A stretch of DNA of 45,918 nucleotides. It comes from a virus. The notes below the pieces were generated by a model that was not told the origin of the DNA, did no database searches, and saw only the letters and a program-made list of their open reading frames with translations. A program made the translations under genes and the position numbers. Positions 8,950 to 45,918 of the stretch are shown here, in pieces (position 1 is the first letter of the stretch; each line of letters opens with the position of its first letter). The stretch lies in IMG/VR virus record IMGVR_UViG_3300044691_000065, positions 1 to 45,918 of that record. The stretch is one strand, 5' to 3'.

Positions 8950-9377
8950 TGGGAATCTTATCAACAATCGCTGGGGCCTTTGGCTCCGGCGCGAGCGAAG
9001 CCGTCGTCAAGACAGTCGATGGCGTCGCTGACGTCGTCGAGCGCTGGGCTCCTGGCGATGAGAAGAAGGCAGAGATGACCGTCGAGCTGAACAAGCTCGT
9101 CGAGACCGCCCGTGCTTACGACCCGCGCACCTCGGCCACCGGCAAGACCGCCGAGTTCATCAACGTGTTGGTCGATGGCGTCACTCGCCTGATCCGCCCT
9201 GGCGTCACCATCGTTATCTTCGGTGGCGTGTTCGGTTGGTGGGGCATCAGCGTCAAGTCGATTGACCCGTTCATCGTCTCATGGGGCCAGGACCTGATGG
9301 TGTTCTGGTTCGGCTCACGAACCGTGCTGAAGGATCTGCCGGTGTTCCTCAAGATGCTTAAGGATCTCCGCAAGTGA
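8949..9377 (+). CDS. Holin, 3TM family-like
   Basis: The 142-aa product resembles the three-transmembrane holin family found in phages and gene transfer agents: an amphipathic N-terminus (IAGAFGSGASEAV), a charged middle (ERWAPGDEKKAEM), then hydrophobic segments (PGVTIVIFGGVFGWWGIS near residue 82; VSWGQDLMVFWFGS near 106). It overlaps the lysozyme gene by a GTGA junction, the classical holin-endolysin pairing. It should permeabilise the inner membrane so that the lysozyme, which lacks a signal peptide, can exit. Confidence 0.75.
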   Translation: MGILSTIAGAFGSGASEAVVKTVDGVADVVERWAPGDEKKAEMTVELNKLVETARAYDPRTSATGKTAEFINVLVDGVTRLIRPGVTIVIFGGVFGWWGISVKSIDPFIVSWGQDLMVFWFGSRTVLKDLPVFLKMLKDLRK

Positions 9378-9814
9378 TGATGCTCGGAGACCGGGGCGAG
9401 GCGCTGATCAAATCTTACGAGAAGCTGCGCCTCGTCGCCTACAAGCCAACGCCCAACGACAAGTGGACCATCGGCTGGGGCCACACTGGACCTGATGTCT
9501 ACGAGGGGCTGACCTGCACGCTCGAAGAGGCGCAGCGCTGGTTCCATGGTGACACGCTCTGGGCCTGCTTCGAGGTACACACGAAGGTCACACTGACTCT
9601 CACCCAGAACCAGTTCGATGCTCTCGTGGCGTTCACGTTCAACGTGGGCGGTCCCAACGCCGAACACTCAACACTGCTGAAGCTACTCAATCAGGGAGAC
9701 CTCGAAGGTGTCGCTGTGGAGTGGATGAAGTGGAACCACCAGGGCGGCAAGGTTCTCGATGGCTTAACTAACAGACGCAAGGCTGAGCTGGCTTTGTTTC
9801 AGGAGGCACTGTGA
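9374..9814 (+). CDS. Endolysin, GH24 (T4-type) lysozyme
   Basis: The 146-aa protein has the phage lysozyme active-site pattern: Glu16 in SYEKLRLVAYK, Asp29 in PNDK, and Thr38 in WTIGWGHTG, then NQFDALVAFTFNVGG and the C-terminal TNRRKAELALFQ. It cleaves peptidoglycan glycosidic bonds. No signal or anchor segment, so export depends on the holin just upstream. Starts at GTG 9374 or ATG 9377/9380 cannot be told apart. T7 has an amidase here; this gene is unrelated. Confidence 0.9.
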   Translation: MMMLGDRGEALIKSYEKLRLVAYKPTPNDKWTIGWGHTGPDVYEGLTCTLEEAQRWFHGDTLWACFEVHTKVTLTLTQNQFDALVAFTFNVGGPNAEHSTLLKLLNQGDLEGVAVEWMKWNHQGGKVLDGLTNRRKAELALFQEAL

Positions 9815-10020: not shown

Positions 10021-10826
10021 AACGCACGCTCCTGATCGACGCCGACATCATCGCCTACAAGTTCTCCTGCGCAACCGAGGACGTCTTCTACTTCGACGGG
10101 AAGGAACAACCTCCTGCCGTAGAGCACGACCTCAACGCAGCCATAGAAGGAGCCACAGACTACCTCAAGGACATGATGGTCCACCTAGGTGCCACCGACA
10201 TGGTCATCTGCCTGACCGACCGGGGCAACGAGTTCAGGAAGGACTTCTGGCCCACCTACAAGGGCAACCGCAAGGGACGCAAACCAACAGACCTACTTCC
10301 ACTGTTGGATCACTTCGAGAAGGAGTACGTGTCGTACAAGCGACCCCGCCTGGAAGCTGACGACTGCATGGGCATCCTGTCCACGCACCCGACGCTGGTC
10401 ACTGGCGAGAAGATCATCGTGTCTGAGGACAAGGACATGCAGACCATACCCGGCCTGCTGTTCAACCCGAGGAAGGATGAGTCGCCCCGGAAGATCGGCC
10501 GGATCGCGGCTGACAGGTTTCACCTGTGGCAGACCCTCGTAGGCGACACCACGGACAACTACCCAGGTGCCAAGGGCATTGGGGAGAAGAGTGTCGAGGC
10601 CCTGGCAGTCCTGGCGGCGAAGACTGTCGAGGAAGGCTGGCGGCACGTCCTGGCTGCGTTCAAGCGATCCGCCGAGAAGCGGAAGGCGTACGACGAGGAG
10701 CACGGCCCCACGGTCGTGGCCCACGACGCACTGATCCAGGCGCGCTGCGCCCGCATCCTTCGCGCAAGTGATTGGAATTTCAAGGAAAAGCGCCCCGTCC
10801 TGTGGAGTCCTCCGAGGTTGGTCTAA
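10017..10826 (+). CDS. 5'-3' exonuclease, T7 gp6-like
   Basis: The 269-aa product belongs to the flap-exonuclease/PIN-like superfamily. Metal-binding acidic residues are visible in LLIDADIIAY (residues 4-13), TDRGNEFRKDFWPTYKGNRK (near 66), LEADDCMGILS (near 112) and VSEDKDMQTI; GDTTDNYPGAKGIGEKS is the helix-hairpin-helix. It removes RNA primers and degrades host DNA. GTG 10017 has AGGAAGG upstream. It ends the replication block. Confidence 0.9.
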   Translation: MKRTLLIDADIIAYKFSCATEDVFYFDGKEQPPAVEHDLNAAIEGATDYLKDMMVHLGATDMVICLTDRGNEFRKDFWPTYKGNRKGRKPTDLLPLLDHFEKEYVSYKRPRLEADDCMGILSTHPTLVTGEKIIVSEDKDMQTIPGLLFNPRKDESPRKIGRIAADRFHLWQTLVGDTTDNYPGAKGIGEKSVEALAVLAAKTVEEGWRHVLAAFKRSAEKRKAYDEEHGPTVVAHDALIQARCARILRASDWNFKEKRPVLWSPPRLV

Positions 10827-10849
10827 AAACCGCCACCCTCGGTAACCCC
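10825..10849 (+). promoter_or_regulatory. Putative phage RNA polymerase promoter before the structural genes
   Basis: AAAACCGCCACCCTCG followed by GTAACCCC starts at the stop codon of the exonuclease gene. The same block recurs before the RNA polymerase gene and before the first early gene, always on the plus strand. ACCCTC also occurs in the T3 promoter core, but the usual initiating G run is not present, so the start base is unclear. A 6-bp dyad (GGTAAC / GTTACC) lies just downstream. Confidence 0.6.
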
Positions 10850-10856
10850 TTCTGTT

Positions 10857-13109: not shown

Positions 13110-14126
13110 ATGGATCTCGCAAGTTTGAATCCCGCGCAGAGAGCTGCGCTCGCCAAGGCCGAAGAGGTTGGCGTTACATCTATTCAAGGCGGACGTGCCG
13201 TCGAGCTGACTGGTTCAGCTAACGTCGAGGCGTCCAATACGCCTGACCCGGCCGTAGCCGCTGCTGCCGCCAAGGCTGCCACGGACGCCGCTGCTGCCGC
13301 TGCCTCGGCCGCGAAGCCGCAAAAGCCAGAAGGTGTCCCAGACAAGTTCTGGGATACCAACTCTGGTACTGTCAACTTCACCGCTTGGGCCAAGAGCACG
13401 AGCGAGCTGGAAAAGCAGTTCACGCAGTCGCGTCAGCAGGCCCAGCAGACTCCAGAGCAGAAGGCTGCCGCCGATGCTGCCGCCGCAACCGCTGCTGCAG
13501 CTCAGACTCCAGAACAGAAAGCCGCTGCGGAAGCTGCTGCAGCCGCCGCAAAGGCCACCGCAGTTGACCCCGCAGTCGCTGCACAGCAAGCCCGCAGTGC
13601 CGCCACAGCCGACCTGACGAAGGACGGCAAGATCAGCGACGCTAGCTATGAGCTGCTCGCGAAGTCAGGCTTCGACCGCAACACGGTGGACACCTACGTC
13701 GCTGGCGAACAGGCCAAGCAGTCGGTGTACCTCAACTCTATCTACACTGCTGCCGGCAGTGAGGCTGAGTACAAGACCATGTTGGCCTGGGCGCCCACCA
13801 CATTCTCCGCTGAGGAAGTGCAGGCGTTCGATGCCGCTGTCCGCTCGGGCAAGCCGGGTGAGATGAAGATGGCTGTCGGTGGACTTAAGGCCCGCTACAC
13901 AGCTGCCTTCGGTAAATCGGCAGTCAACATCATCGTCCCTGCCAACGCAGGCAACACGCCGCCCACAGGCTTCACCTCACAGGCTGAAGTGACGAAGGCC
14001 ATGCAAGACCCACGGTGGACCAAAGGTGACCCCGCGTATCGACGTGAGGTGACCCAGAAGATCCAGGCAGCCGAGATGGCGGGCGTGGACATTGGGCTCA
14101 ACGTCATGCGCAGTGGCAACTTCTAA
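13110..14126 (+). CDS. Scaffolding (capsid assembly) protein, T7 gp9-like
   Basis: The 338-aa protein sits between portal and capsid, as in T7. It is rich in Ala, Gln and Lys, with Ala-rich coiled-coil stretches (residues 47-68 and 110-155) and two QTPEQKAA repeats, then a conserved C-terminal half (DGKISDASYELLAKSGFD; DPRWTKGDPAYRREV) typical of gp9-like proteins. It guides procapsid assembly and leaves before maturation. A strong GAGGAGG site precedes ATG 13110. Confidence 0.88.
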   Translation: MDLASLNPAQRAALAKAEEVGVTSIQGGRAVELTGSANVEASNTPDPAVAAAAAKAATDAAAAAASAAKPQKPEGVPDKFWDTNSGTVNFTAWAKSTSELEKQFTQSRQQAQQTPEQKAAADAAAATAAAAQTPEQKAAAEAAAAAAKATAVDPAVAAQQARSAATADLTKDGKISDASYELLAKSGFDRNTVDTYVAGEQAKQSVYLNSIYTAAGSEAEYKTMLAWAPTTFSAEEVQAFDAAVRSGKPGEMKMAVGGLKARYTAAFGKSAVNIIVPANAGNTPPTGFTSQAEVTKAMQDPRWTKGDPAYRREVTQKIQAAEMAGVDIGLNVMRSGNF

Positions 14127-30802: not shown

Positions 30803-31045
30803 ATGAACATCCCCGATCTAGTAGTCAAGACCTGTGTCGGCGTCGCCTGCACTGCGCTCGTGGCCCTCGGGACGAGCGTGATCGGGGACTCCCGCACGAA
30901 CGCCACCCAGGACAAGGACATCGCCTCACTGGTGGCGAACCAACAGACCACCACAGAAACACTGCAGCGCCTTGACGAGACCGTTCGGTCACTCGACAAG
31001 TCCGTCGCTGTATTGAATCAGGAGCTGAAGGATGGCAAGCGGTAA
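30803..31045 (+). CDS. Small single-span protein at the T7 holin (gp17.5) position
   Basis: The 80-aa product has one N-terminal hydrophobic segment (VVKTCVGVACTALVALGTSVI, residues 7-27) and a helical coiled-coil remainder (QTTTETLQRLDETVRSLDKSV). Gene order fibre - this gene - TerS equals T7 gp17 - gp17.5 - gp18, and gp17.5 is the holin. Topology also fits an inner-membrane spanin-like subunit. A separate 3TM holin exists at 8949, so roles are open. It overlaps TerS by 14 bases. Confidence 0.55.
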   Translation: MNIPDLVVKTCVGVACTALVALGTSVIGDSRTNATQDKDIASLVANQQTTTETLQRLDETVRSLDKSVAVLNQELKDGKR

Positions 31046-31316
31046 AGGCACCGACGGTCAGTTCGGCGACCTCCACGCCCTCGTAGCTGAATCCCTCATT
31101 CAACAGATCACCGCCTGGAAGGCTGGCTGTCTGGTGGAGATGGACGGCGAAGGGGGGTACGTGAGGGTCTTCCCACCGGCCCTCCTCGCCCAGGCGATCA
31201 AGTTCCTCAAAGACAACGGCATCGACCAGCCGGCCCGCCAGGGCAACAAGGTTGACACTCTGAAGAAGGCGATGCCCGACTTCAGCGACGACAACATCAT
31301 CCCAATCAGAAAGTAA
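31032..31316 (+). CDS. terS: Terminase small subunit, T7 gp18-like
   Basis: The 94-aa product (T7 gp18 is 89) contains DLHALVAESLIQQITAWK, the phrase RVFPPALLAQAIKFLKDNGI typical of this small-subunit family, and a short polar tail. It recognises genome ends or concatemer junctions and hands them to TerL. ATG 31032 lies inside the previous gene, preceded by AGGAGCTGAAGG. TerL follows after three small genes. Confidence 0.82.
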   Translation: MASGKGTDGQFGDLHALVAESLIQQITAWKAGCLVEMDGEGGYVRVFPPALLAQAIKFLKDNGIDQPARQGNKVDTLKKAMPDFSDDNIIPIRK

Positions 31317-31772: not shown

Positions 31773-31874
31773 ATGAACAGATACCACAAGACTCCGGTCT
31801 GCCATTGGATGCCCCGCAGCCCTTACCGGCTCGTGTGGGACGTGGTGCGGTTCGCTTATCAACACCGGAGGTAA
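31773..31874 (+). CDS. Very small protein, 33 aa
   Basis: ATG 31773 follows the previous TGA directly. Product starts MNRYHKTPVCHWMPRSPYRL and is rich in aromatic and basic residues. AAGG about nine bases upstream could serve as ribosome site. The frame ends 4 bases before the TerL ATG. It may be a real micro-gene or simply carry the TerL ribosome site (GGAGGTAA). Confidence 0.4.
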   Translation: MNRYHKTPVCHWMPRSPYRLVWDVVRFAYQHRR

Positions 31875-31878
31875 ACCC

Positions 31879-33624
31879 ATGGAGACCCCGGAGGTCACCC
31901 AGGTATACCCCGAGTGGGTCTCCACCGAATCAGAGCAGCGCATCCACGACGACTTCGTGATGTTCGTCTGGTTGATTTGGCGGCACCTGAAGCTGCCAGT
32001 CCCAACGAGACGGCAGCGATCCCTAGCTCGATATCTACAACACGGCCCCCGCCGCCGAATGCTCCAAGCGTTCCGTGGCATTGGCAAGACGTGGCTCACC
32101 TGTGCGTACGCCCTCTGGCGCCTGTACAGGAACCCCAACGAGCGCGTCAAGATCGTCTCCGCTAACGAGGACAAGGCGACAGAGAACGCCGTCTTCATGC
32201 GCCGGCTGATCGAAGAGGTTCCCGAGCTGCAGTTCCTGCGGCCACGTGGCAACCAGCGCGACAGTGTGCTGACGTTCGACGTTGGTCCCTCTGATGCCCA
32301 CCCCACTCCATCCATCTCGGCTGTCGGTATCACCGGCCAGCTGACCGGTGGTCGAGCTACGATCCTGATCTCTGACGACGTCGAGGTCCCGAAGAACTCC
32401 TACACGGAGACCATGAGGGAACGCCTCGCTGAGCTGATCAAGGAGTACGACGCGCTCGTAGTCCCCGAAGGCTTCGACATCATCTACCTGGGCACGCCCC
32501 AGACTGAGCAGTCGATCTACAACGTGGTCCGCACTCGCGGCTACGACTGTCGCATCTGGCCTGCCCTATATCCAGATCGAGCCCTGGTCGAGAAGTACGA
32601 CGGTGCCCTGGCCGAAGACATCATGGCCGAACTGACGGCCGGCGCTAAGCCCGGTACGTCAACTGACCCCGAGAGGTTCTCCGACCTGGACCTTGCTGAG
32701 CGTGCGGTGTCCTACGGGCGCAGCGGGTTCCAGCTACAGTTCATGTTGGACACCTCTCTCAGCGATGCCCTCCGGTATCCGCTGAAGCAGGCCGACCTGA
32801 TCTTCTTCGACTGTGCCCGCGACGATGCCCCGGTACGCCTAGCGTGGACCTCAGATCCCCGCAACGCGGTCATAGACATACCCAACATAGGCTTCAGTGG
32901 CGACCGGCTGTACAGACCGCTGCATGCCTCTGAGCAGCGCGAGAAGTACTCCGGCAGTGTCCTTGTGGTTGACCCATCGGGGCGCGGCAAGGATCACACG
33001 GCGGTAGGCGTGTTGAAGGAGGCAGCCGGCCAGCTGTACCTGACAGCCCTCAAGGGGTTCAAGGGCGGATACGAGCCGGCGACCCTCCAGGCCATCGCAG
33101 ATCTCGCGAAGGAGCAGAAGGTCAACCACTGTATCGTCGAGTCCAACTTCGGCGACGGCATGTTCCAGAAGCTGCTGGAGCCCTACCTCGTTCGTACCCA
33201 CCCGGTGACGGTCGAGGAAGTGCGGGTCAACACGCAGAAGGAACTGCGGATCATCTCCGACCTTGAGCCCATCCTCAACCAGCATCGTCTCGCCGTTGAT
33301 GGCGCGGTGCTACGTGAGGACGCCCAGCTCGCCACGGATGAACCCAAGTACTCCTTCCTGTACCAGCTCACCCACCTGACGAAAGCCAGGGGCGCACTGA
33401 GGCATGACGACAAGATCGATGTGGTGGCCCTAGGCTGCCGCTACTTTCGCGACGCCATGGCTATCGATCACGCGAAGGCCGAGTTGGCCCACCTTGAGAA
33501 GCTGCGTGACAAGGAGTTCCGTGACTACGAGGATGCAGTCCTCGGGAAGCACGGCAGGCGAGCCCAGAGGTTCGTCAACAGTGTCCCTAAGGTGCTACGG
33601 CAGCGTCACCGAGGGATGAGATAA
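31879..33624 (+). CDS. terL: Terminase large subunit, T7 gp19-like
   Basis: The 581-aa protein (T7 gp19 is 586) has Walker A FRGIGKTW (near residue 64), Walker B ILISDDVE (near 162), and an RNase H-like nuclease with VVDPSGRGKDHTAVG (near 363), VESNFGDGMFQKLLEPYL (near 419) and RHDDKIDVVALGCRYF (near 508). It powers DNA packaging through the portal and cuts concatemers. GGAGG precedes ATG 31879. It is the last plus-strand gene of the late block. Confidence 0.95.
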   Translation: METPEVTQVYPEWVSTESEQRIHDDFVMFVWLIWRHLKLPVPTRRQRSLARYLQHGPRRRMLQAFRGIGKTWLTCAYALWRLYRNPNERVKIVSANEDKATENAVFMRRLIEEVPELQFLRPRGNQRDSVLTFDVGPSDAHPTPSISAVGITGQLTGGRATILISDDVEVPKNSYTETMRERLAELIKEYDALVVPEGFDIIYLGTPQTEQSIYNVVRTRGYDCRIWPALYPDRALVEKYDGALAEDIMAELTAGAKPGTSTDPERFSDLDLAERAVSYGRSGFQLQFMLDTSLSDALRYPLKQADLIFFDCARDDAPVRLAWTSDPRNAVIDIPNIGFSGDRLYRPLHASEQREKYSGSVLVVDPSGRGKDHTAVGVLKEAAGQLYLTALKGFKGGYEPATLQAIADLAKEQKVNHCIVESNFGDGMFQKLLEPYLVRTHPVTVEEVRVNTQKELRIISDLEPILNQHRLAVDGAVLREDAQLATDEPKYSFLYQLTHLTKARGALRHDDKIDVVALGCRYFRDAMAIDHAKAELAHLEKLRDKEFRDYEDAVLGKHGRRAQRFVNSVPKVLRQRHRGMR

Positions 33625-34114: not shown

Positions 34115-34168
34115 GGTAATTCTTCCTTGTAGAGACTAAAGACCCGACAGCGGGAGAACTGTACCTCG

Positions 34169-34191
34169 GGTGGTAGTTATTCGCTACCACC
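34169..34191. promoter_or_regulatory. Operator-like palindrome between divergent genes
   Basis: GGTGGTAG (34169-34176) and CTACCACC (34184-34191) form a perfect 8-bp dyad with 7 central bases. It lies between the minus-strand lipoprotein start (34114) and the plus-strand XRE start (34242), where a dimeric repressor would bind to control both. Confidence 0.6.
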
Positions 34192-34241
34192 TGCCCTGGT
34201 CGTTTAATTGGACACCCCTGCACCTCGTTGTAGGGAGTTCA

Positions 34242-34472
34242 ATGCGGAAGTACCCAGGACGGCATCGTGCCGTCATTACTGCTTTGCGAGACGCGCGGAT
34301 CGCGAAGGGTGTGTCCCAACGGGCGCTGTCGGGGACACTCGGTGAGGTGTCGAATTACATCAACATGATCGAGAAGGGCCAGCGCAATGTCCTGGCCGAA
34401 GAGTTCATTGAGATCTCCCTGGCATTGGAGCTAGACCCGCTCGATGTGCTGCGAAAGGCCCTCCGCAGGTAA
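34242..34472 (+). CDS. XRE-family transcriptional regulator, 76 aa
   Basis: ATG 34242 is chosen because TAGGGAG precedes it; an upstream in-frame GTG at 34170 lies within the palindrome. The chain is one helix-turn-helix domain: ALRDARIAKGVSQRALSGTL, then VSNYINMIEKGQRN and LALELDPLDVLRKAL. Such single-domain proteins act as dimeric repressors or Cro-like switches. With the integrase and attP it suggests a lysogeny switch; the neighbouring palindrome is its likely site. Its 3' end runs into the heptamer array. Confidence 0.85.
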   Translation: MRKYPGRHRAVITALRDARIAKGVSQRALSGTLGEVSNYINMIEKGQRNVLAEEFIEISLALELDPLDVLRKALRR

Positions 34473-35462
34473 GCCTCAGGGTTTGCCTCTGTGCCGCTTC
34501 AGGAGGTTCTTCAGGCGACCGTCAGGCGGGCCAGGGTTAGCCTTAGGCTTTGCCTCAGGCGGGCCTACGGGCTCCTCCAGGCGTCTGAAGACACCCGACT
34601 GCGAGTGACTGCGCTTGTAGCGCTCCTTCAGGCGTAACCGGGCGATCACCGCGGCGCGCCTACGGTTCGCTGTGGCGTCGTTGTCGTCCTCTTTGGTCAT
34701 CCGCACCTCCGTGCTAGTGAATCCATATCAGGGGAAAGCTGAAGGAAAGGTAAGCCTTTGGTCTGTCGTGCAGCAACAAGACCAGCGAGTACTTAAGAGT
34801 TCTTTTGCTCCTCCACGAATGGAGAGGCTCCACATACGGCGATCACTCCATAGCCGCTACATCGACCATACCTCAACCTGAAGTCAGCCTGTGGGGCTCC
34901 TCCGGCTGAACGGCGGGCTTTGCCTCAGGTGGACCTGCGGTGGATGTGCGGAGATTGAAGCCCCTATTCTCCGCTTCGGCCCGTTTTCAGAAAAATCACC
35001 GAGGGGGTTTGGCGACTGGCCGATGGCATTTTCCCCCATGCCGGCCTGCCTGGACCTAGGCGAGCCATGGTGACCGGTCGGGCTCTCCTGCCGGCCAGCG
35101 CAGGCGGATTTGCGCGTGCATATAGATACGGTATCTCCATCGACCCACATGCAATCAATGGGTTAGCACATGCGTGTGCCATGGCGTGCCCACGGGTACA
35201 CCTCAGGCACACCTGTGGATTGGCCTATGGATGCAGTGCGGGCACACCTCAGGCGTACACACGCGCTCATTTCACACGCGATAACGCCTGCACACGCTCG
35301 GCCGTACGTTTCCGCACTCGCTTGCGGGTATCTGTTTTTTTCAATCTCAGCCCTACAGCTACACCTCAGGTACGCCATAGGTACGCCTACGGGTCGCGCG
35401 CACGCGTTCATTCCAACTACACCGCTACTGCACTACCGGTACACCTCAGGTCGCACTGCAGG
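34463..35462. repeat. Helically phased array of CCTNNGG-type heptamers in a gene-poor region
   Basis: Degenerate 7-mers (CCTCAGG most common; CCTACGG, CCTGTGG, CCTATGG, CCTGCGG, CTTCAGG, CCATAGG) recur every 11-12 bases in clusters. Examples are starts at 34463, 34474, 34486, 34497, 34509, 34520, 34541, 34553, 34564, 34575; 34877, 34888, 34899, 34923, 34934, 34945; 35190, 35201, 35212, 35224, 35247; 35352, 35364, 35375, 35386; 35433, 35444, 35456. The spacing is not a multiple of three and is near one helical turn. Between clusters I see no convincing gene. Confidence 0.75.
34476..34700 (-). CDS. Possible small basic protein, 74 aa
   Basis: On the minus strand, ATG 34700 is preceded by GGAGG at five bases, a strong site. 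The product begins MTKEDDNDATANRRRAAV and continues strongly basic (ARLRLKERYKR; NLLKRHRGK). It converges on the XRE gene. The C-terminal half lies in the phased heptamer array and has an odd Pro/Gly/Lys composition, so the frame could be a by-product of the repeats. Confidence 0.4.
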   Translation of the reverse strand: MTKEDDNDATANRRRAAVIARLRLKERYKRSHSQSGVFRRLEEPVGPPEAKPKANPGPPDGRLKNLLKRHRGKP

Positions 35463-35554
35463 CTTCTGATAAGCGCTAGCCGCAAGCGCACTCAGGAGCA
35501 ACCATTGGCGTGCCATCGGCGATCTTTGCGACCCACATCACACTTATTTGAACA

Positions 35555-35568
35555 TTCCACATGTGGAA
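35555..35568. promoter_or_regulatory. 14-bp perfect palindrome upstream of a promoter-like site
   Basis: TTCCACATGTGGAA is fully self-complementary and ends 3 bases before a TTGACA hexamer. The inner TCCACATGTGGA recurs at 45521-45532 before the Cys-rich gene. It is a plausible operator or activator site for the downstream accessory genes. Confidence 0.5.
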
Positions 35569-35571
35569 CGC

Positions 35572-35601
35572 TTGACACCAGTGGATCTACTGCATTAGTG
35601 T
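35572..35601 (+). promoter_or_regulatory. Sigma70-like promoter candidate
   Basis: A perfect -35 box TTGACA (35572-35577) is followed after 18 bases by TAGTGT (35596-35601), which keeps the three most conserved -10 positions. Transcription would start near 35608 and enter the accessory genes after a leader of about 250 bases. Host RNA polymerase use, for instance in a lysogen, is inferred. Confidence 0.45.
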
Positions 35602-35856
35602 TGCGACTCGGGACTGCAAACCGGCCCGGACGACACCGGGGCAGGTAGCGGACACAGATAGGCGACGGACGGCACGCTTAGTGATCCACCGGCAAAGAGG
35701 CTAACGGCGAGCCGCACAAGTGCGAAGCGTCGAGGGTAGAGAACAGCGACTCAACACTGTGCGGCCGGCGCACTGAGCAACTACCAAGCGGAGCGGGTAA
35801 CCGCACACATCGTAAAGCGCTGCACTGTGTAGCGTTTCATCATGTGGAGAAATCAA
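35602..35856 (+). other. Structured untranslated leader or ncRNA candidate
   Basis: I find no gene in these 255 bases. Five complementary 5-mers occur: CGCAC at 35713, 35769 and 35802, GTGCG at 35720 and 35759. CGCAC-AA-GTGCG (35713-35724) and GTGCG-GCCGG-CGCAC (35759-35773) form perfect hairpins, and other pairings are mutually exclusive, as in attenuators. The leader ends at the first accessory micro-gene. Confidence 0.4.
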
Positions 35857-35937
35857 ATGTTAGTAGCCGTATGGATGCTTGTGATCGTTTCTGGAACCGT
35901 CATTGGCCGCGCTGTCACGCGTTGCATCTTCGCCTGA
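35857..35937 (+). CDS. Single-span membrane micropeptide, 26 aa
   Basis: ATG 35857 follows TGTGGAG at eight bases. Almost the whole product is one hydrophobic helix (MLVAVWMLVIVSGTVIG) with a short basic end (RAVTRCIFA). The first gene after the leader. Very small membrane peptides in phage accessory regions often modulate host membrane functions, but nothing here shows which. Too short for certainty. Confidence 0.45.
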   Translation: MLVAVWMLVIVSGTVIGRAVTRCIFA

Positions 35938-35963
35938 TAGATCCACTACTGGAGTCACTGCAC

Positions 35964-36140
35964 ATGACACACACAGAGCTTGTATCGGCCGTCCGCGCGC
36001 TGGGCATGACGGTACGTTGGACTGGTGATGACTACCGCGTGAACCACCGCAATGGACGTGAAGCCACTGCGTATTACACCGACTCGCGTGATGACGCGCT
36101 CGGCACGGCAAAGGCAATGAGCGAGAGGGCGCCCACATGA
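35964..36140 (+). CDS. Hypothetical small protein, 58 aa
   Basis: I chose ATG 35964, preceded by ACTGGAG in a leader also found before 8725 and 45541; a longer frame upstream overlaps the micropeptide and lacks support. The product begins MTHTELVSAVRALGMTVRW, then DYRVNHRNGREATAYYTDS and DDALGTAKAM: a helix-beta-beta-helix pattern like small phage double-psi or dsRBD-shaped proteins. The stop overlaps the next ATG. Confidence 0.65.
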   Translation: MTHTELVSAVRALGMTVRWTGDDYRVNHRNGREATAYYTDSRDDALGTAKAMSERAPT

Positions 36141-39617: not shown

Positions 39618-39971
39618 ATGGAAAACATGACAACCAAGCTCTCCGGCTTTTACGTCGAAGGCAAGTACTACGGGACCAAGTTTGCGCAGGCAGCTGGGCG
39701 CGCGGCGTTCCTGGCTGCTGAGCACAAGCGGGGCATTGACATCAACTTCTGTGATCACCTTGGGCGAGAGGACGTCAAGCTGACTGTGTTCCCGTATCGC
39801 GCCCCTGAGGCACGCATGACAGCCCCTGAGGCACGCATGACAGCCCCTGAGGTGAGCGCAGCGTGGAACCTCGGGCCGATATGGTCGCCTCGCGAACTGG
39901 CGGAGATGGCTGCGTGGGACCAAACATGTCGCAACCCTGCCTGTATCCCTGGCCGGTTGTGCCACACATGA
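39618..39971 (+). CDS. Hypothetical protein with heptapeptide repeat, 117 aa
   Basis: ATG 39618 follows TGAGGATTCAACC. Residues 1-60 look globular (LSGFYVEGKYYGTKFAQAAG). Residues about 62-80 are two and a half copies of APEARMT, from a 21-bp tandem repeat, acting as a linker to a Cys-containing tail (CRNPACIPGRLC). The stop overlaps the next ATG. Repeat number may vary between relatives. Confidence 0.6.
   Translation: MENMTTKLSGFYVEGKYYGTKFAQAAGRAAFLAAEHKRGIDINFCDHLGREDVKLTVFPYRAPEARMTAPEARMTAPEVSAAWNLGPIWSPRELAEMAAWDQTCRNPACIPGRLCHT
39801..39852 (+). repeat. 21-bp in-frame tandem repeat
   Basis: The unit GCCCCTGAGGCACGCATGAC plus A occurs at 39801-39821 and 39822-39842, with a third partial copy to 39852. 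It contains CCTGAGG, the reverse complement of the heptamer abundant in the 34.4-35.5 kb array. Copies are identical, implying recent duplication. Confidence 0.9.
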
Positions 39972-40922: not shown

Positions 40923-41315
40923 GTGACCCCGACAGAACAACCAAAGTCGAACTTCCTGGCTGCTGGAGCGCTGCTGAGCGCGCTGGAGCCCGTCGTTGAA
41001 GAGTTCGGCACAAGCACGCCATTGACCTACGTGATTACGTTTCTACACGTTGTCGCGGCCGGGTCGGCGGGTATCGATCAAGGGGAATTGGGCAAGAAGC
41101 TGGACACATCGGGGCCTGCTGCGGTGCGCGCCGTGCAGGCTTTGAGTGACTGGTCCTGGGTGAAGGGTGATGACGCGCAGAAGCAGCCCGGTCTCGGGCT
41201 GGTGAAGAGTGAGACAGACCCGCGTGGTGACGCTCGTCGCCGCGTCGTGTCTCTGACCAACAAGGGCGATAAGCTGGCGCAGAAGATCGCCGCCAAACTG
41301 GAGCGCAGGAAGTGA
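40923..41315 (+). CDS. Winged-helix (MarR-like) regulator, 130 aa
   Basis: The middle of the product reads as a MarR-type winged helix: YVITFLHVVAAGSAGIDQGE (helix and first turn), LGKKLDTSGPAAVRAVQAL (recognition region), then DPRGDARRRVVSLTNKGDK, the wing with its usual Asp-Arg and Leu-Thr-x-x-Gly pattern. GTG 40923 follows AAAGGCTGTAACC. Located two genes before the integrase, it may control integration or excision; the palindrome at 40666 is a candidate site. Confidence 0.75.
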   Translation: MTPTEQPKSNFLAAGALLSALEPVVEEFGTSTPLTYVITFLHVVAAGSAGIDQGELGKKLDTSGPAAVRAVQALSDWSWVKGDDAQKQPGLGLVKSETDPRGDARRRVVSLTNKGDKLAQKIAAKLERRK

Positions 41316-41455
41316 GGCGATTGCATTGGGAGATATGTTTGGGAGTGCTGGTGTTTGGCGGGGCTATCCTCGCCGGCATCGGCGTGGTCTCACACAGTGG
41401 TGAAGCGTTGATCATTGTCGCAGCATGTTTCTGCGGCTGGAGGACAACCAAGTGA
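41312..41455 (+). CDS. Small two-span membrane protein, 47 aa
   Basis: GTG 41312 overlaps the regulator stop. Hydrophobic runs ICLGVLVFGGAILAGIGVV and ALIIVAACFCGW are separated by SHSGE. Its TGA overlaps the integrase GTG and it carries the integrase ribosome site (TGGAGG). Function unknown; it may serve mainly to couple translation. Confidence 0.5.
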   Translation: MRRLHWEICLGVLVFGGAILAGIGVVSHSGEALIIVAACFCGWRTTK

Positions 41456-42534
41456 AGCTATTCAAACGTAACGGGTTCTGGCACTGCGAATTCAAGGACG
41501 CCACACGTCGCCTCAGGTTCTCCTCAGGTATCACCTTGAGTGAGCCTCGGGAAACAGCTGAGCGTGCCGCGTCGGAGAAGCTGCGTAAGCTCCTCACAGG
41601 TACGGGCGGCGCGCCTCAGGCTGCCCGCAGTGTTGGGAAGGTGTTCAACCTCGCGGAAGCGTTGGAGCGCACGCTGAACAACCATTGGGCTGGCACGCCG
41701 TCCGAGGGGCAGATCAAGTTTGTGGTTCGCCGGCTGGAACGTGAGATCGGGCACTGGCTGCTGACTGAGATCGACTACAGGAAGCTGAAGGAGTACGCCG
41801 ACGGGTGCATCAAGCAGGGCAAGAAGCCAGCCACGGTGAACCGCAGGATGTCCGCGATGAAGGTGGCGCTGCGCGATGCGTGCCGCATGGGTGACCTCAC
41901 GGCGATGCCGATGTTCCCCTCGCAACTGCCTGAGAACAACATCCGCGAGCGCTACCTGTCCGCCGAGGAGGAGCAGCGGGTGCAGGCGTACCTGGGCAAG
42001 CGGGTGGCCGTCGAGCTGATCGAGGGCGGCGACGACTGGCAGTATCTGGCGAACCTGTTCGTGTTCCTGATCGACACCGGATGTCGACTTGGGGAGGCCC
42101 TGAAGCTCCCCGACTGCGACGGGCGGGTGGCCCACCTGAAGACCGGGACTACCAAGTCCGGACGGGCGCGGGTGGTGCCACTGACGGCGCGGGCGGGGGC
42201 GGCGATGGTTGCCATGCTGGCGAGCCCGCTCCACGGGAAGGTGGACGACAACTTCATTGGCCGGCGCTGGGGCCGGGTGCGCGTGGAGTGCGACATCCGC
42301 GATGTGAACATTCACATCCTGAGGCACACGTGCGCGTCCCGGTTGCTGGCAGCCAAGGTGGACCTCTACACGGTCTCCAAATGGCTAGGCCACAGCTCGG
42401 TGAAGGTCACTGAGCGATATGGGCACCTTGCCCACGGTGCGCTGGAGCAGGCCCTGGCGGCGCTGGTCCGGTCGCCGGTTGCAGTGACTCCACTCGTGGA
42501 TGTCTCGGTTGGCACACAACCTGTCCACTTGTGA
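41452..42534 (+). CDS. int: Tyrosine recombinase / integrase
   Basis: The 360-aa protein has an SAM-like N-terminal domain (RRLEREIGHWLLTEIDYRKL) and a catalytic domain with Arg in DTGCRLGEAL (near residue 209), HILRHTCASRLL (His and Arg near 287-290), WLGHSS (His near 312) and nucleophile Tyr in TERYGHL (near 322). GTG 41452 is preferred over ATG 41425 because TGGAGG precedes it. It catalyses attP-attB recombination. The putative attP tRNA sequence lies 63 bases downstream. Confidence 0.93.
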   Translation: MKLFKRNGFWHCEFKDATRRLRFSSGITLSEPRETAERAASEKLRKLLTGTGGAPQAARSVGKVFNLAEALERTLNNHWAGTPSEGQIKFVVRRLEREIGHWLLTEIDYRKLKEYADGCIKQGKKPATVNRRMSAMKVALRDACRMGDLTAMPMFPSQLPENNIRERYLSAEEEQRVQAYLGKRVAVELIEGGDDWQYLANLFVFLIDTGCRLGEALKLPDCDGRVAHLKTGTTKSGRARVVPLTARAGAAMVAMLASPLHGKVDDNFIGRRWGRVRVECDIRDVNIHILRHTCASRLLAAKVDLYTVSKWLGHSSVKVTERYGHLAHGALEQALAALVRSPVAVTPLVDVSVGTQPVHL

Positions 42535-42734: not shown

Positions 42735-42989
42735 ATGACCCCTGAAGAAATTCAGGCAGCGCTCGCGGCTGCCCAAAAGCTTTTCCTCCACGCCGACTGG
42801 CTGGCCGATGGCTACAGCGGCAACAACCCCGGCAAGCAACGGCGGCTCGACGAGAACGCGCTGCGGGCACGCCGCGAGGTTACCCGCCTGCTCGCCCTGG
42901 TCCGCGACTGTTTCACTGGCGAGTCACGAAAACCGCCACCCTCGTATACCCCCGTGGTGTTCACCCTAAGTACTACACCTGAGGTTTAA
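42735..42989 (+). CDS. Hypothetical protein before the RNA polymerase gene, 84 aa
   Basis: ATG 42735 follows CGGAGCACCTCA. The first 60 residues are helical and Ala-rich (EIQAALAAAQKLFLHADWL; ALRARREVTRLLALVRD). The last 20 are encoded by the putative phage promoter and the RNA polymerase leader and read as a Pro/Thr-rich tail, so the promoter lies inside the coding sequence. Function unknown. Confidence 0.6.
   Translation: MTPEEIQAALAAAQKLFLHADWLADGYSGNNPGKQRRLDENALRARREVTRLLALVRDCFTGESRKPPPSYTPVVFTLSTTPEV
42929..42953 (+). promoter_or_regulatory. Putative phage RNA polymerase promoter before its own gene
   Basis: AAAACCGCCACCCTCG then TATACCCCC matches the copies at 10825 and 45771 over 16 identical bases. 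It lies 41 bases upstream of the RNA polymerase ATG, so the polymerase may amplify its own expression. Confidence 0.6.
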
Positions 42990-42993
42990 CCAC

Positions 42994-45516
42994 ATGACTG
43001 ACCTGATGACCAGACAGGCCGAACTAGAGTCCGACTCAGTGCTCCTCGGCCAGCACCGCTACGCCGCCTCCCGTAAGAACCAAGGTGAATCAGCTACATC
43101 CCCTGGAAAGTATCAGACCCAGGAAGCGCTCCCCGCCCTCGCCCAGGCTATCGAGCTGTTCGTTGAGCAAGCAGCGAAGCCCGATGTAGCCGGCCGCAAG
43201 CATCGCGCGTTGCCCTACCTGCTGCACATCCTTCCAGAGCAGGCAGCCTACCTGACCATCCGCTACGCCATTGACGGCGCGGCGGCGAACCAGAAGATCA
43301 ACACGTTAGCTCTGGCCTTAGGCTCCGCGGTTGAGGACCACATCCATCTCTTGAAGCTCTCCGAGCAGGAGTTCACCGGAGCGGATGGCGAGGTGCGCAC
43401 GGGGGGGCTCTATCGCAAGGTGATGGAGCAGGTCAAGAAGGCAACCAGCGAAAGGCACCGAAAGGCGGTGCTGCGCCACGTCGTCGCCAAGTACGCCGTA
43501 GACACTCTGGACTGGTCGGACACCGACAAACTACACCTAGGGACCAAGCTGGTCGAGCTGCTCGACGAGACCAGTACGCTTGTGACTCTCCGCAGGGACA
43601 CCGAAGGACACCACAACACGCCAGTGAAAATTGTCTTCACAGACGAGGCCCAGGCATGGTTCGACCAGTCACACGACCGCGCCAGTACGTGGAGCCCCGT
43701 CCATCTGCCGATGATCGCCCCGCCGCGCGACTGGCACATCGAAGAGTCCACCACCCACATGCCGGCGGACGGCGTCGGCCCATCATTGCTGCGCAAGCGG
43801 ATCGTGGGCGGCTACATCACACGCGCTATCCGTAGAGCCAACATGGTTCAGTCCCGCCTACCTGGGGGGCTCGCCCGCATGGTTAATGCGGGCATGCAGA
43901 ACGTGTTTGACGCCGTCAACGCAACCCAACGGACACCCTGGAGGATCAACCGCCAGCTACTCGCGGTGATGCGCGAGGCACGCACGGGTGGGGACAGGTT
44001 CCAATCATTGTTCGTTGAGGCCGACCTGCCGCTGCCCGCGCGACCAGCGGGTGTCTCACTTTCCATTGGTATGGATCAGCTCACCCTGGATCAGCGGGAA
44101 GCGCTGATGTCATGGAAGAGGGACGCCGCCCTAGTGTACGAATCAAATGCTCGGCTGCGAAGCAAGCGCATTGGAGTGGCACAGAAGCTTTGGGTGGCTA
44201 ACAAGTTCGTAGATGAGGCTGCAATCTACTTCCCGCACTATCTCGACTTCCGGGGGCGTATCTACCCATTCGCTTCGTACCTGAATCCTCAGTCAAGCGA
44301 CACGGGACGCGCGCTGTTGGAGTTTGCGGAGGGTAAGGTACTTGGGGAGAGGGGGCTGTTCTGGCTCAAGGTCCACATCGCGAATCTCTTCGGTGTAGAC
44401 AAGGTGAGCTTTGAGGAACGAGTCAAGTGGGTTAATGGAAATCTGGAAGCGCTGCTGGATAGTGCGGCCCTCCCGCTCGACGGCATGCAGCTGTGGGTTA
44501 CAGCTGACAGCGGTAAGAACAAGTGGCAAGCGCTGGCAGCGTGTATGGAATTGGCAGGCGCGCTGGTTGCGGGGCGCGCATACGTGTCGCATATGCCAAT
44601 CGCAATGGACGGTTCGTGCTCCGGCCTACAGCACTACTCCGCGATGCTCCGCGATCCCGTTGGTGGCGCTGCAGTCAACCTCGTACCTCAACAGAAGCCC
44701 GGCGATATCTACACTGAGGTGGCTACACGCGCTCAAGCTTTGATTGATAGATCCACAGATGGAATGGCTGCATGTTGGAAAGGCGGCAAGGTGGTACGCA
44801 AGATAGCCAAGCAGCCAACGATGACACTCTGCTACAGCGCGACGGTGTTCGGCATGCAGTCCCAGATAGCGAAGGCTGTTGAAGGGCTGGGCGGCGCTGA
44901 GTACTTAGGCGGTGCCGACGTGCGGCCCTCCTGTGTCTACATGGCGGGCGTCATCTGGGACGCCATCGGTGCAACCGTGGTTGCTGCGAAGGAAGCAATG
45001 GGATTCCTAAAGGAGATCGCCAAGCTGGCGGCGGAGGCCGACATGCCAATCAAGTGGACTGCGCCATCTGGCTTCCTTGTGGAGCAGGGATACCGGGAGC
45101 CCATAGGCAAGCGCGTACATCTCCATTACAAAGGGATTGAGTTAAAGCTCATGCTGACGCGGGACGGAGACAAGCTCGCACGCAAGAAGCAGGTCGCCAG
45201 CGTGGCTCCTAACTTCGTCCATTCCTTGGACAGCGCGCACCTGATGGCAACAGTCAACCTAGGGACCGACAACGGGCTGACCCATTGGGCATGCATACAC
45301 GACTCCTTTGGCGTACATGCGGCCGACGTCGACACACTGCACGCCTGCATCCGAGAATCATTCATCGAGCAGTACACCCCTGACGTACTGGCGCGGCTCC
45401 GAGAGGAGATCGTTGCCCAGCTGCCCGCCGAATTGGCTGAGAAAATTCCTGCGGTTCCACTGCAGGGCACTTTGGATCTAGCTGCAGTCCGCGACTCTGC
45501 CTACTTCTTTGCCTAA
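42994..45516 (+). CDS. Phage RNA polymerase, T7 gp1-like single subunit
   Basis: The 840-aa enzyme (T7 is 883) has all core motifs: LDFRGRIYPFASYLNP (near residue 417), MDGSCSGLQHYSAMLRD with the first catalytic Asp (near 537), KQPTMTLCYSATVFG with the fingers Lys-Tyr (near 605), APNFVHSLDSAHL (near 740) and CIHDSFGVHAADV with the second Asp (near 768). The specificity-loop region reads GKRVHLHYKGIELKL, with His where T7 has Asn748, so promoter choice should differ from T7. CCTGAGG is its ribosome site. Confidence 0.97.
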   Translation: MTDLMTRQAELESDSVLLGQHRYAASRKNQGESATSPGKYQTQEALPALAQAIELFVEQAAKPDVAGRKHRALPYLLHILPEQAAYLTIRYAIDGAAANQKINTLALALGSAVEDHIHLLKLSEQEFTGADGEVRTGGLYRKVMEQVKKATSERHRKAVLRHVVAKYAVDTLDWSDTDKLHLGTKLVELLDETSTLVTLRRDTEGHHNTPVKIVFTDEAQAWFDQSHDRASTWSPVHLPMIAPPRDWHIEESTTHMPADGVGPSLLRKRIVGGYITRAIRRANMVQSRLPGGLARMVNAGMQNVFDAVNATQRTPWRINRQLLAVMREARTGGDRFQSLFVEADLPLPARPAGVSLSIGMDQLTLDQREALMSWKRDAALVYESNARLRSKRIGVAQKLWVANKFVDEAAIYFPHYLDFRGRIYPFASYLNPQSSDTGRALLEFAEGKVLGERGLFWLKVHIANLFGVDKVSFEERVKWVNGNLEALLDSAALPLDGMQLWVTADSGKNKWQALAACMELAGALVAGRAYVSHMPIAMDGSCSGLQHYSAMLRDPVGGAAVNLVPQQKPGDIYTEVATRAQALIDRSTDGMAACWKGGKVVRKIAKQPTMTLCYSATVFGMQSQIAKAVEGLGGAEYLGGADVRPSCVYMAGVIWDAIGATVVAAKEAMGFLKEIAKLAAEADMPIKWTAPSGFLVEQGYREPIGKRVHLHYKGIELKLMLTRDGDKLARKKQVASVAPNFVHSLDSAHLMATVNLGTDNGLTHWACIHDSFGVHAADVDTLHACIRESFIEQYTPDVLARLREEIVAQLPAELAEKIPAVPLQGTLDLAAVRDSAYFFA

Positions 45517-45540: not shown

Positions 45541-45771
45541 ATGCGAAACAAGTACTTGAACAAGACCAACATGCTCAACGGCAACGCGGAGCAGTTCCGC
45601 GCCGTCCGCCAGCGGATGGATAGCGTCCCCTACCACAACGCCCACATGGAGGCCGGCTGCCTCGTCTGTCGTAGCGCGGTGCCGGGGCGCATCTGCCCGG
45701 ACTGCTACGTCTGCATCGCCTGCGCTCCGGGGTGCGACGAGTGCGCACCCCTCAGACAGGGGGCCAAGTAA
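45541..45771 (+). CDS. Cys-rich zinc-finger-like protein, 76 aa
   Basis: ATG 45541 follows TCCACATGTGGAG, a palindrome that includes the ribosome site. After a basic N-terminal half (NKYLNKTNMLNGNAEQFR; VRQRM) come CLVC, CPDC, CYVC, CIAC and CDEC, enough for two zinc sites. It follows the RNA polymerase and ends exactly at a putative promoter. Homologue of the truncated copy at 2-106, but ten residues longer at the C-terminus. It might modulate transcription; this is inference. Confidence 0.75.
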   Translation: MRNKYLNKTNMLNGNAEQFRAVRQRMDSVPYHNAHMEAGCLVCRSAVPGRICPDCYVCIACAPGCDECAPLRQGAK

Positions 45772-45795
45772 AAACCGCCACCCTCGTATTCCCCC
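45771..45795 (+). promoter_or_regulatory. Putative phage RNA polymerase promoter before the early genes
   Basis: AAAACCGCCACCCTCG then TATTCCCCC begins at the stop codon of the Cys-rich gene and ends about 25 bases before the ATG of the next gene (45821, same gene as at 180). It is almost identical to the 42929 copy. Confidence 0.6.
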
Positions 45796-45918
45796 TTCGT
45801 ACAAACCCGAGGAACCGTCCATGAAAGGTTACAAAGCCCACACCGTGAGGGACCAGATCCGGTTCCTCGCGAACCCTGCCCGCCTCCGCCGCCCCGCCTT
45901 CGCAGTCATCAACAAGCT
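45792..45918 (+). repeat. Right copy of exact 127-bp direct repeat
   Basis: It is identical to 151-277 and runs to the last base of the window. Joining at this repeat gives a unit of 45,641 bp and puts the RNA polymerase just upstream of the early genes. Confidence 0.9.
45821..45918 (+). CDS. Start of the first early gene, cut by window end
   Basis: These bases encode the first 32 residues of the same protein as the gene at 180-485, with the same GAGGAACC ribosome site and no differences. It is a repeat of that gene's start, not a second gene, unless the repeat is truly terminal. Confidence 0.85.
   Translation, partial: MKGYKAHTVRDQIRFLANPARLRRPAFAVINK

Follow-up and report, generated by a model that had tools for sequence, protein, structure and literature searches.

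The window analysed here is the whole of virus record IMGVR_UViG_3300044691_000065 (45918 bases, of the T7-like type), and the question it raises is what to make of the CCTCAGG-like heptamers that recur at steps of 11-12 bp between 34463 and 35462. We conclude, with a probability of about 0.88, that these heptamers mark the concatemer junction of a temperate T7-like phage, consisting of an SRR array (34463-34940), a predicted direct terminal repeat (DTR, 35008-35329) and SRL heptamers (35364-35450). The names are those of the heptamers at the ends of T7, which we take to be the SRL and SRR repeats so called, reportedly, by Dunn and Studier in 1983. An earlier note on this DNA had offered several functions for the array, most of which do not hold; what survives of them is a non-coding, helically phased and functional-looking cis element, possibly an array on which a protein lands, while the proposed ties to an XRE regulator and to a partition or nucleoid site fall away.

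Matches to CCTCAGG in at least five of the seven positions were counted over 34463-35462 and in 500 dinucleotide shuffles. The region holds 36 matches (19.1 ± 3.7 in shuffles), which form 18 pairs at lags of 10-13 bp (12 at lag 11 and five at lag 12) against 1.5 ± 1.3 in the shuffles, none of the 500 reaching 18, and the phasing echoes at lags 22-23 and 33-35. The autocorrelation check that had been proposed thus bears out the claim of real phasing at 11-12 bp. The two densest CCTCAGG-phased stretches of the whole 45.9-kb window are both in the junction region, the densest 250-bp windows starting at 34315 (nine pairs) and at 35126 (five pairs). A count of ten blocks in a row depends on near-matches (such as CCGCAGG, CTTCAGG and CGTCAGG), as strict CCTNNGG occurs only four times in 34463-34581 (at 34474, 34541, 34553 and 34564); an outlying CTTCAGG lies at 34626. 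Nor do the two strands look alike, as had been supposed: the array is directional, with seven exact copies of CCTCAGG and none of CCTGAGG in the region. Any one phage mostly keeps to a single centre base in CCTNAGG (C in the window, G in the related loci L006 and L008), a pattern that looks like concerted evolution of the array. Far from the junction, a perfect 21-bp tandem repeat (GCCCCTGAGGCACGCATGACA, 2.5 copies, 39801-39852) contains CCTGAGG.

The array starts just 3' of terL and ahead of the early genes, at the place where the T7 genome ends, with a terminase pair of the gp18/gp19 type encoded directly upstream of the junction and the integrase and RNA polymerase genes following at 41-45 kb (Table 1). 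Genes for a gp2.5-like single-strand binding protein, a RusA resolvase, a primase/helicase and a DNA polymerase are also present and, judged by this gene content and its tyrosine integrase, the phage is temperate and T7-like; attP probably lies between the integrase and RNA polymerase genes. The array does begin inside the 3' end of the XRE open reading frame, as had been described, and the position of this gene, between terL and the end of the genome, is the reason why the two adjoin; the XRE gene, for which an alternative ATG at 34243 may be the true start, is probably outside the junction element. Other features were noted in passing. A MarR-like regulator gene (40923-41315) is directly upstream of the integrase gene, and a MarR-family gene is found in the same place in P-SSP7 and LUZ100. 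Candidate promoters for the phage RNA polymerase, (A)AAAACCGCCACCCTCGTATWCCCC, occur four times on the plus strand (42925-42958, 45767-45800, 127-160 and 10822-10855); they closely flank the RNA polymerase gene on both sides or precede other genes, and no such site was seen beside the junction. An imperfect 22-bp tandem repeat, CCGGAGGTAAACCCAGGGAGACC, at 31865-31912 is just upstream of the terL start and overlaps it.

Table 1. Coordinates of the junction features and of the genes that frame them in the window.
Feature	Position	Strand	Basis
Terminase small subunit (T7 gp18-like)	31032..31316	+	PF11123 DNA_Packaging_2, 5e-11; phrog_891, 2.3e-12
Terminase large subunit, terL (T7 gp19-like)	31879..33624	+	phrog_38, 6e-105
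XRE/HTH_3 protein gene, in the interval between terL and junction	34170..34472	+	PF12844, 2.6e-7; PF01381, 8.8e-7
Main phased heptamer array, SRR-like, left of predicted terminal repeat	34463..34581	+	9 pairs at lag 10-13 in 34440-34680 vs 0.46 shuffled
Second heptamer cluster, SRR-like	34877..34940	+	CCTGAAG 34877, CCTGTGG 34888, CCTCCGG 34899, CCTCAGG 34923, CCTGCGG 34934
Left-edge box AAAAATCACCGAGGGGG, abutting the predicted cut	34991..35007	+	Gapless alignment with T7, T3, Pasto, S2B and relatives
Predicted direct terminal repeat (DTR), 322 bp	35008..35329	+	Edges by homology to T7, T3, Pasto, S2B, P-SSP7
Small dyad GGCAT-TTTCCCCC-ATGCC holding the CCCCC box	35025..35042	+	C run at +25 to +27 in T7, T3, phiKMV, S2B, Pasto, P-SSP7
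Heptamers within predicted terminal repeat	35201..35253	+	CCTCAGG 35201, CCTGTGG 35212, CCTATGG 35224, CCTCAGG 35247
ATCTGTTTTTTT, right edge; putative class II phage RNA polymerase pause or termination signal	35330..35341	+	ATCTGTT exactly at DTR+1 in T7, T3, Pasto
SRL-like heptamer cluster, right of predicted terminal repeat	35364..35392	+	CCTCAGG 35364, CCATAGG 35375, CCTACGG 35386
Last SRL-like heptamer	35444..35450	+	
Tyrosine integrase	41425..42534	+	PF00589, 9.9e-15
Single-subunit T7-type RNA polymerase	42994..45516	+	phrog_414, 1e-227

The edges of the terminal repeat were predicted from phages with described ends. Counted from the first base of AAAAATC (T7, T3 and Rhizobium phage Pasto) or of AGAAATC (Caulobacter phage S2B), the DTR start is exactly 17 nt away; the left-edge sequences, each with 17 bases to the cut, are AAAAATCTGAGTGACTA (T7), AAAAATCTGAATGGGTA (T3), AAAAATCCGAGACACTG (Pasto) and AGAAATCCGAAGCGGCA (S2B). 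Immediately past the right edge, T7, T3 and Pasto have ATCTGTT, Prochlorococcus phage P-SSP7 has ACCTGTT and S2B has CCCTGCTTTTTT. Inside the repeat, all five of these phages, and phiKMV, have a C run whose first base is between +25 and +27. Two exceptions to the edge rule are retained: the annotated ends of LUZ100 are 12 nt off the left rule and are without ATCTGTT, and phiKMV has the C box only. In the window, the left box, CCCCC and ATCTGTTTTTTT occur in one copy each, with strand, order and spacing as expected: the left-edge signature has a single match with both strands searched, CCCCC starts at 35033 (DTR +26), and the sole copy of ATCTGTTTT on either strand is the site at 35330. As these signatures match known DTR edges, 35008 and 35329 are the predicted ends of the repeat. 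A small hairpin (35311-35328) precedes ATCTGTTTTTTT, and the ATCTGTT of the window, unlike that of T7, runs into seven T; ATCTGTT is the core of the class II signal, which terminates transcription only with a U-run (PMC11617373). DNA folding of the DTR edges gave no unusual stability.

The predicted DTR is present as a single copy in the assembly, and the ends of the window share no overlap. Four near-complete relatives have the RNA polymerase gene at one end and the integrase gene at the other (in either orientation), so that they are linearised between the two, as an integrated prophage would be. As these genes, split in the relatives, are contiguous in the window, where the break is downstream of the RNA polymerase gene, the window seems to represent the free form with joined ends. 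The simplest reading is of a free, circularly permuted temperate T7-like genome in which the terminal repeats collapsed to one copy on assembly; the junction would be seen in one piece because a linear genome was assembled as a circle. A precedent is P-SSP7, which was assembled as a circle and thought to be circularly permuted, its DTR being hidden until the ends were sequenced (PMC3350473).

The phased spacing recurs at the same place across related phages. No nucleotide similarity to the junction was found in the phage collection, and therefore the comparison rests on anatomy. A further scan assumes no word (7-base matches at 6/7, lag 10-13, best 300-bp segment). T7, S2B, LUZ100, jiawei and Pasto (the last scanned over its two end stretches) each have their top-ranked segment at the genome end or next to it; BB8 has its second-ranked one beside the end; and in YIMV22061, as in most of the window's close relatives, the best one is 3' of terL. 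The junction ranks second and third in the window, behind a low-complexity coding stretch at 13261. The 127-bp end repeat of BB8 was set aside, 127 being a common assembler k-mer length, from which it may derive. In each of 68 viral loci with terL (46-76% identical), we compared the 1.8 kb that follows this gene with the remainder of the locus: 63 have an excess at lag 10-13 (median ratio 1.83, Wilcoxon 2e-11, a p-value that is optimistic because the loci are not all independent), and at the control lags 15-18 there is none (28/68 loci, ratio 0.86, p 0.87). Relatives lacking the spacing had been named as an outcome that would count against the array, and the opposite is found. Across related loci totalling approximately 620 kb, the left-edge signature matches 32 times, always on the 3' side of terL and never farther than 2.5 kb from it (27 within 1.8 kb and five at 1.86-2.41 kb), six of these loci having already been seen when the pattern was written. 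In L003, L006, L008 and L009, ATCTGT(T/C)TTTTT follows the predicted left edge by 252-282 bp. A first scan of bacterial genomes found nothing; a second retrieved prophage-type loci with mixed conservation, 7/10 having the phased excess and 2/10 the left box.

The heptamer word itself is less constant. CYTNARG is enriched 11-fold in the junction of T7 and 7-fold in that of the window, and was considered as a universal word, given enrichment of 4- to 11-fold in these two and in L002, L004, L005, L006, L008, L040 and BB8. This was rejected, as CYTNARG is not enriched in L003, L009, S2B or jiawei; the word differs in these four and in YIMV22061. That other phages have other words at the same step suggests that the spacing is conserved while the word drifts.

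The probable role of the junction is that of a recognition and maturation zone for packaging by gp18/gp19. Terminal repeats would recombine to give concatemers, and a phage RNA polymerase crossing the junction would pause or terminate at ATCTGTTTTTTT, at the right edge of the repeat. The paused polymerase may help to recruit the gp18/gp19 terminase, which would cut next to ATCTGTTTTTTT; the other genome end would be made at the left edge, which has the form AAAAATC...GAG, then the cut, then N25 CCCCC. On either side of the cuts, the phased heptamers would line up their sites along a single face of the DNA, most likely as a platform that the maturation and packaging complex binds cooperatively. 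That this complex itself reads the heptamers is speculative, with the chances about evenly balanced. In T7, the lysozyme-type amidase gp3.5 assists polymerase pausing, as an accessory protein that does not define the DNA element. The family of this amidase (PF01510) was not found in the window or in relative G001, and was found in G002, G004 and G005; the window, in which the T7-type amidase was not detected, has a Phage_lysozyme-family gene (PF00959) at 9374-9814.

The strongest alternative accepts the same junction and assigns the heptamers to replication, recombination or end protection, for example as sites for an annealing or replication protein, in place of packaging. To our knowledge the function of SRL and SRR in T7 is not settled, and the arrays flank the repeat and lie inside it, as they do in T7, in the same region in which the ends recombine into concatemers (PMC3350473). 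However, the cut signals that adjoin the junction and the proximity of the terminase genes favour maturation, as does the mapping of T3/T7 packaging specificity to within 5% of the termini (PMC3276506), and so we consider this alternative possible but not probable. A cooperative operator through which the adjoining XRE protein controls lysogeny would suit a phage with an integrase, the first heptamer of which is inside the 3' end of the XRE gene. It is nevertheless very unlikely, as arrays occur at the same place in virulent T7 and in relatives where no XRE homologue was found (none in eight related records, most of which carry the array, in a search without a positive control), sites that flank and enter a terminal repeat over 1 kb are unlike an operator, and a consensus scan of 34150-36000 found no sigma-70-type promoter. 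No host promoter thus emerged to the right of SRL either.

Extremely improbable is a partition site, a plasmid-type (iteron) replication site or a nucleoid-protein landing zone, as the earlier note had also entertained: helical phasing taken alone is compatible with such sites, but nothing points there, none of the genes examined was noticed to encode a partition protein or an iteron initiator, the relatives are integrated prophages or T7-like virulent phages, and the two DTR edges are present within the arrays. Chance, base composition or coding can practically be dismissed, for although CCTNAGG-like words are common in G+C-rich DNA, neither the shuffles nor the control lags in the 68 relatives reproduce the phasing, the step is not a multiple of three throughout, and no conserved open reading frame covers the array. 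Coding had already been discounted in the first description, and correctly: the frames over the array (the antisense frame 34476-34706 and small ones nearby) gave no notable family match and no tblastn match in relatives.

Read as a concatemer junction, the locus becomes a familiar landmark in place of a puzzling repeat, and the ends of an uncultivated temperate T7-like phage receive coordinates that can be tested. The observations also suggest that conservation of the phased end arrays, and of both cut-edge boxes, extends far outside T7 and T3, and the ends of circularly assembled T7-like metagenomic genomes would therefore be predictable. Left-end formation has been called not fully understood (PMC3350473), and many natural variants are on offer for its study and for that of the role of SRL and SRR in T7. 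A broader proposal, which we consider doubtful as a whole, is that the array is a widespread mark of T7-like genome ends, in which the helical step is kept and the word drifts because its reader is a phage protein that evolves with it (the small terminase, for instance, at one subunit per turn); that, with the edge boxes, terminal repeats could be read from sequence alone; and that in this clade ATCTGTTTTTTT, as a complete class II terminator, may do the work of lysozyme-assisted pausing, at least where the amidase was not found. The last of these is a weak idea, because the amidase is present in three of four relatives, two of which (G002 and G004) also have the T-run.

Among named phages, P-SSP7 (206-bp DTR, Sanger-mapped) has the ACCTGTT right edge, with CCCCCGTAGGGGGG inside the repeat and the CCCCC box at +27; it differs in a 2-nt insertion in the left box and in having no outstanding phased array, from which it follows that the array is not universal. 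S2B (259-bp DTR, integrase) has the closest named RNA polymerase to that of the window (41.5%) and resembles it in its exact left edge, its right edge at CCCTGCTTTTTT and a phased array beside the DTR, the heptamer word being G-rich rather than CYTNARG. Pasto, suggested to be temperate by its authors (PMC8407765), has a 271-bp DTR by PhageTerm, both edges of which fit the rule exactly, and a strong phased array at its left end; it differs in its word (best GGCACCC/CCCATCG-like) and in an ATCTGTT without a long T-run.

The closest known systems are T7 and T3. Contrary to the view that no T7-like element of this kind had been described, the T7 record has CCTAAAG and its one- and two-mismatch variants at a spacing of 11-13 bp in two stretches, 175-332 (left end) and 39606 to approximately 39734 (right end), which flank the 160-bp DTR on both sides, with further copies inside it. 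T7, T3 and the window have in common heptamers that flank and enter the DTR downstream of gene 19/terL, the left-edge box, and the ATCTGTT right edge, and their words (CCTAAAG in T7, CTTAAAG in T3 and CCTCAGG in the window) all fit CYTNARG. The window differs in its G+C-richer word, in its step (11-12 versus mostly 13 in T7/T3) and in its longer predicted DTR (322 bp versus 160 bp in T7 and 231 bp in T3), and it alone of the three has the T run after ATCTGTT, a temperate gene content and an XRE gene between terL and the array. The general signatures of T7-like ends are moderately interesting, and the junction is a further instance of the known T7 end element.
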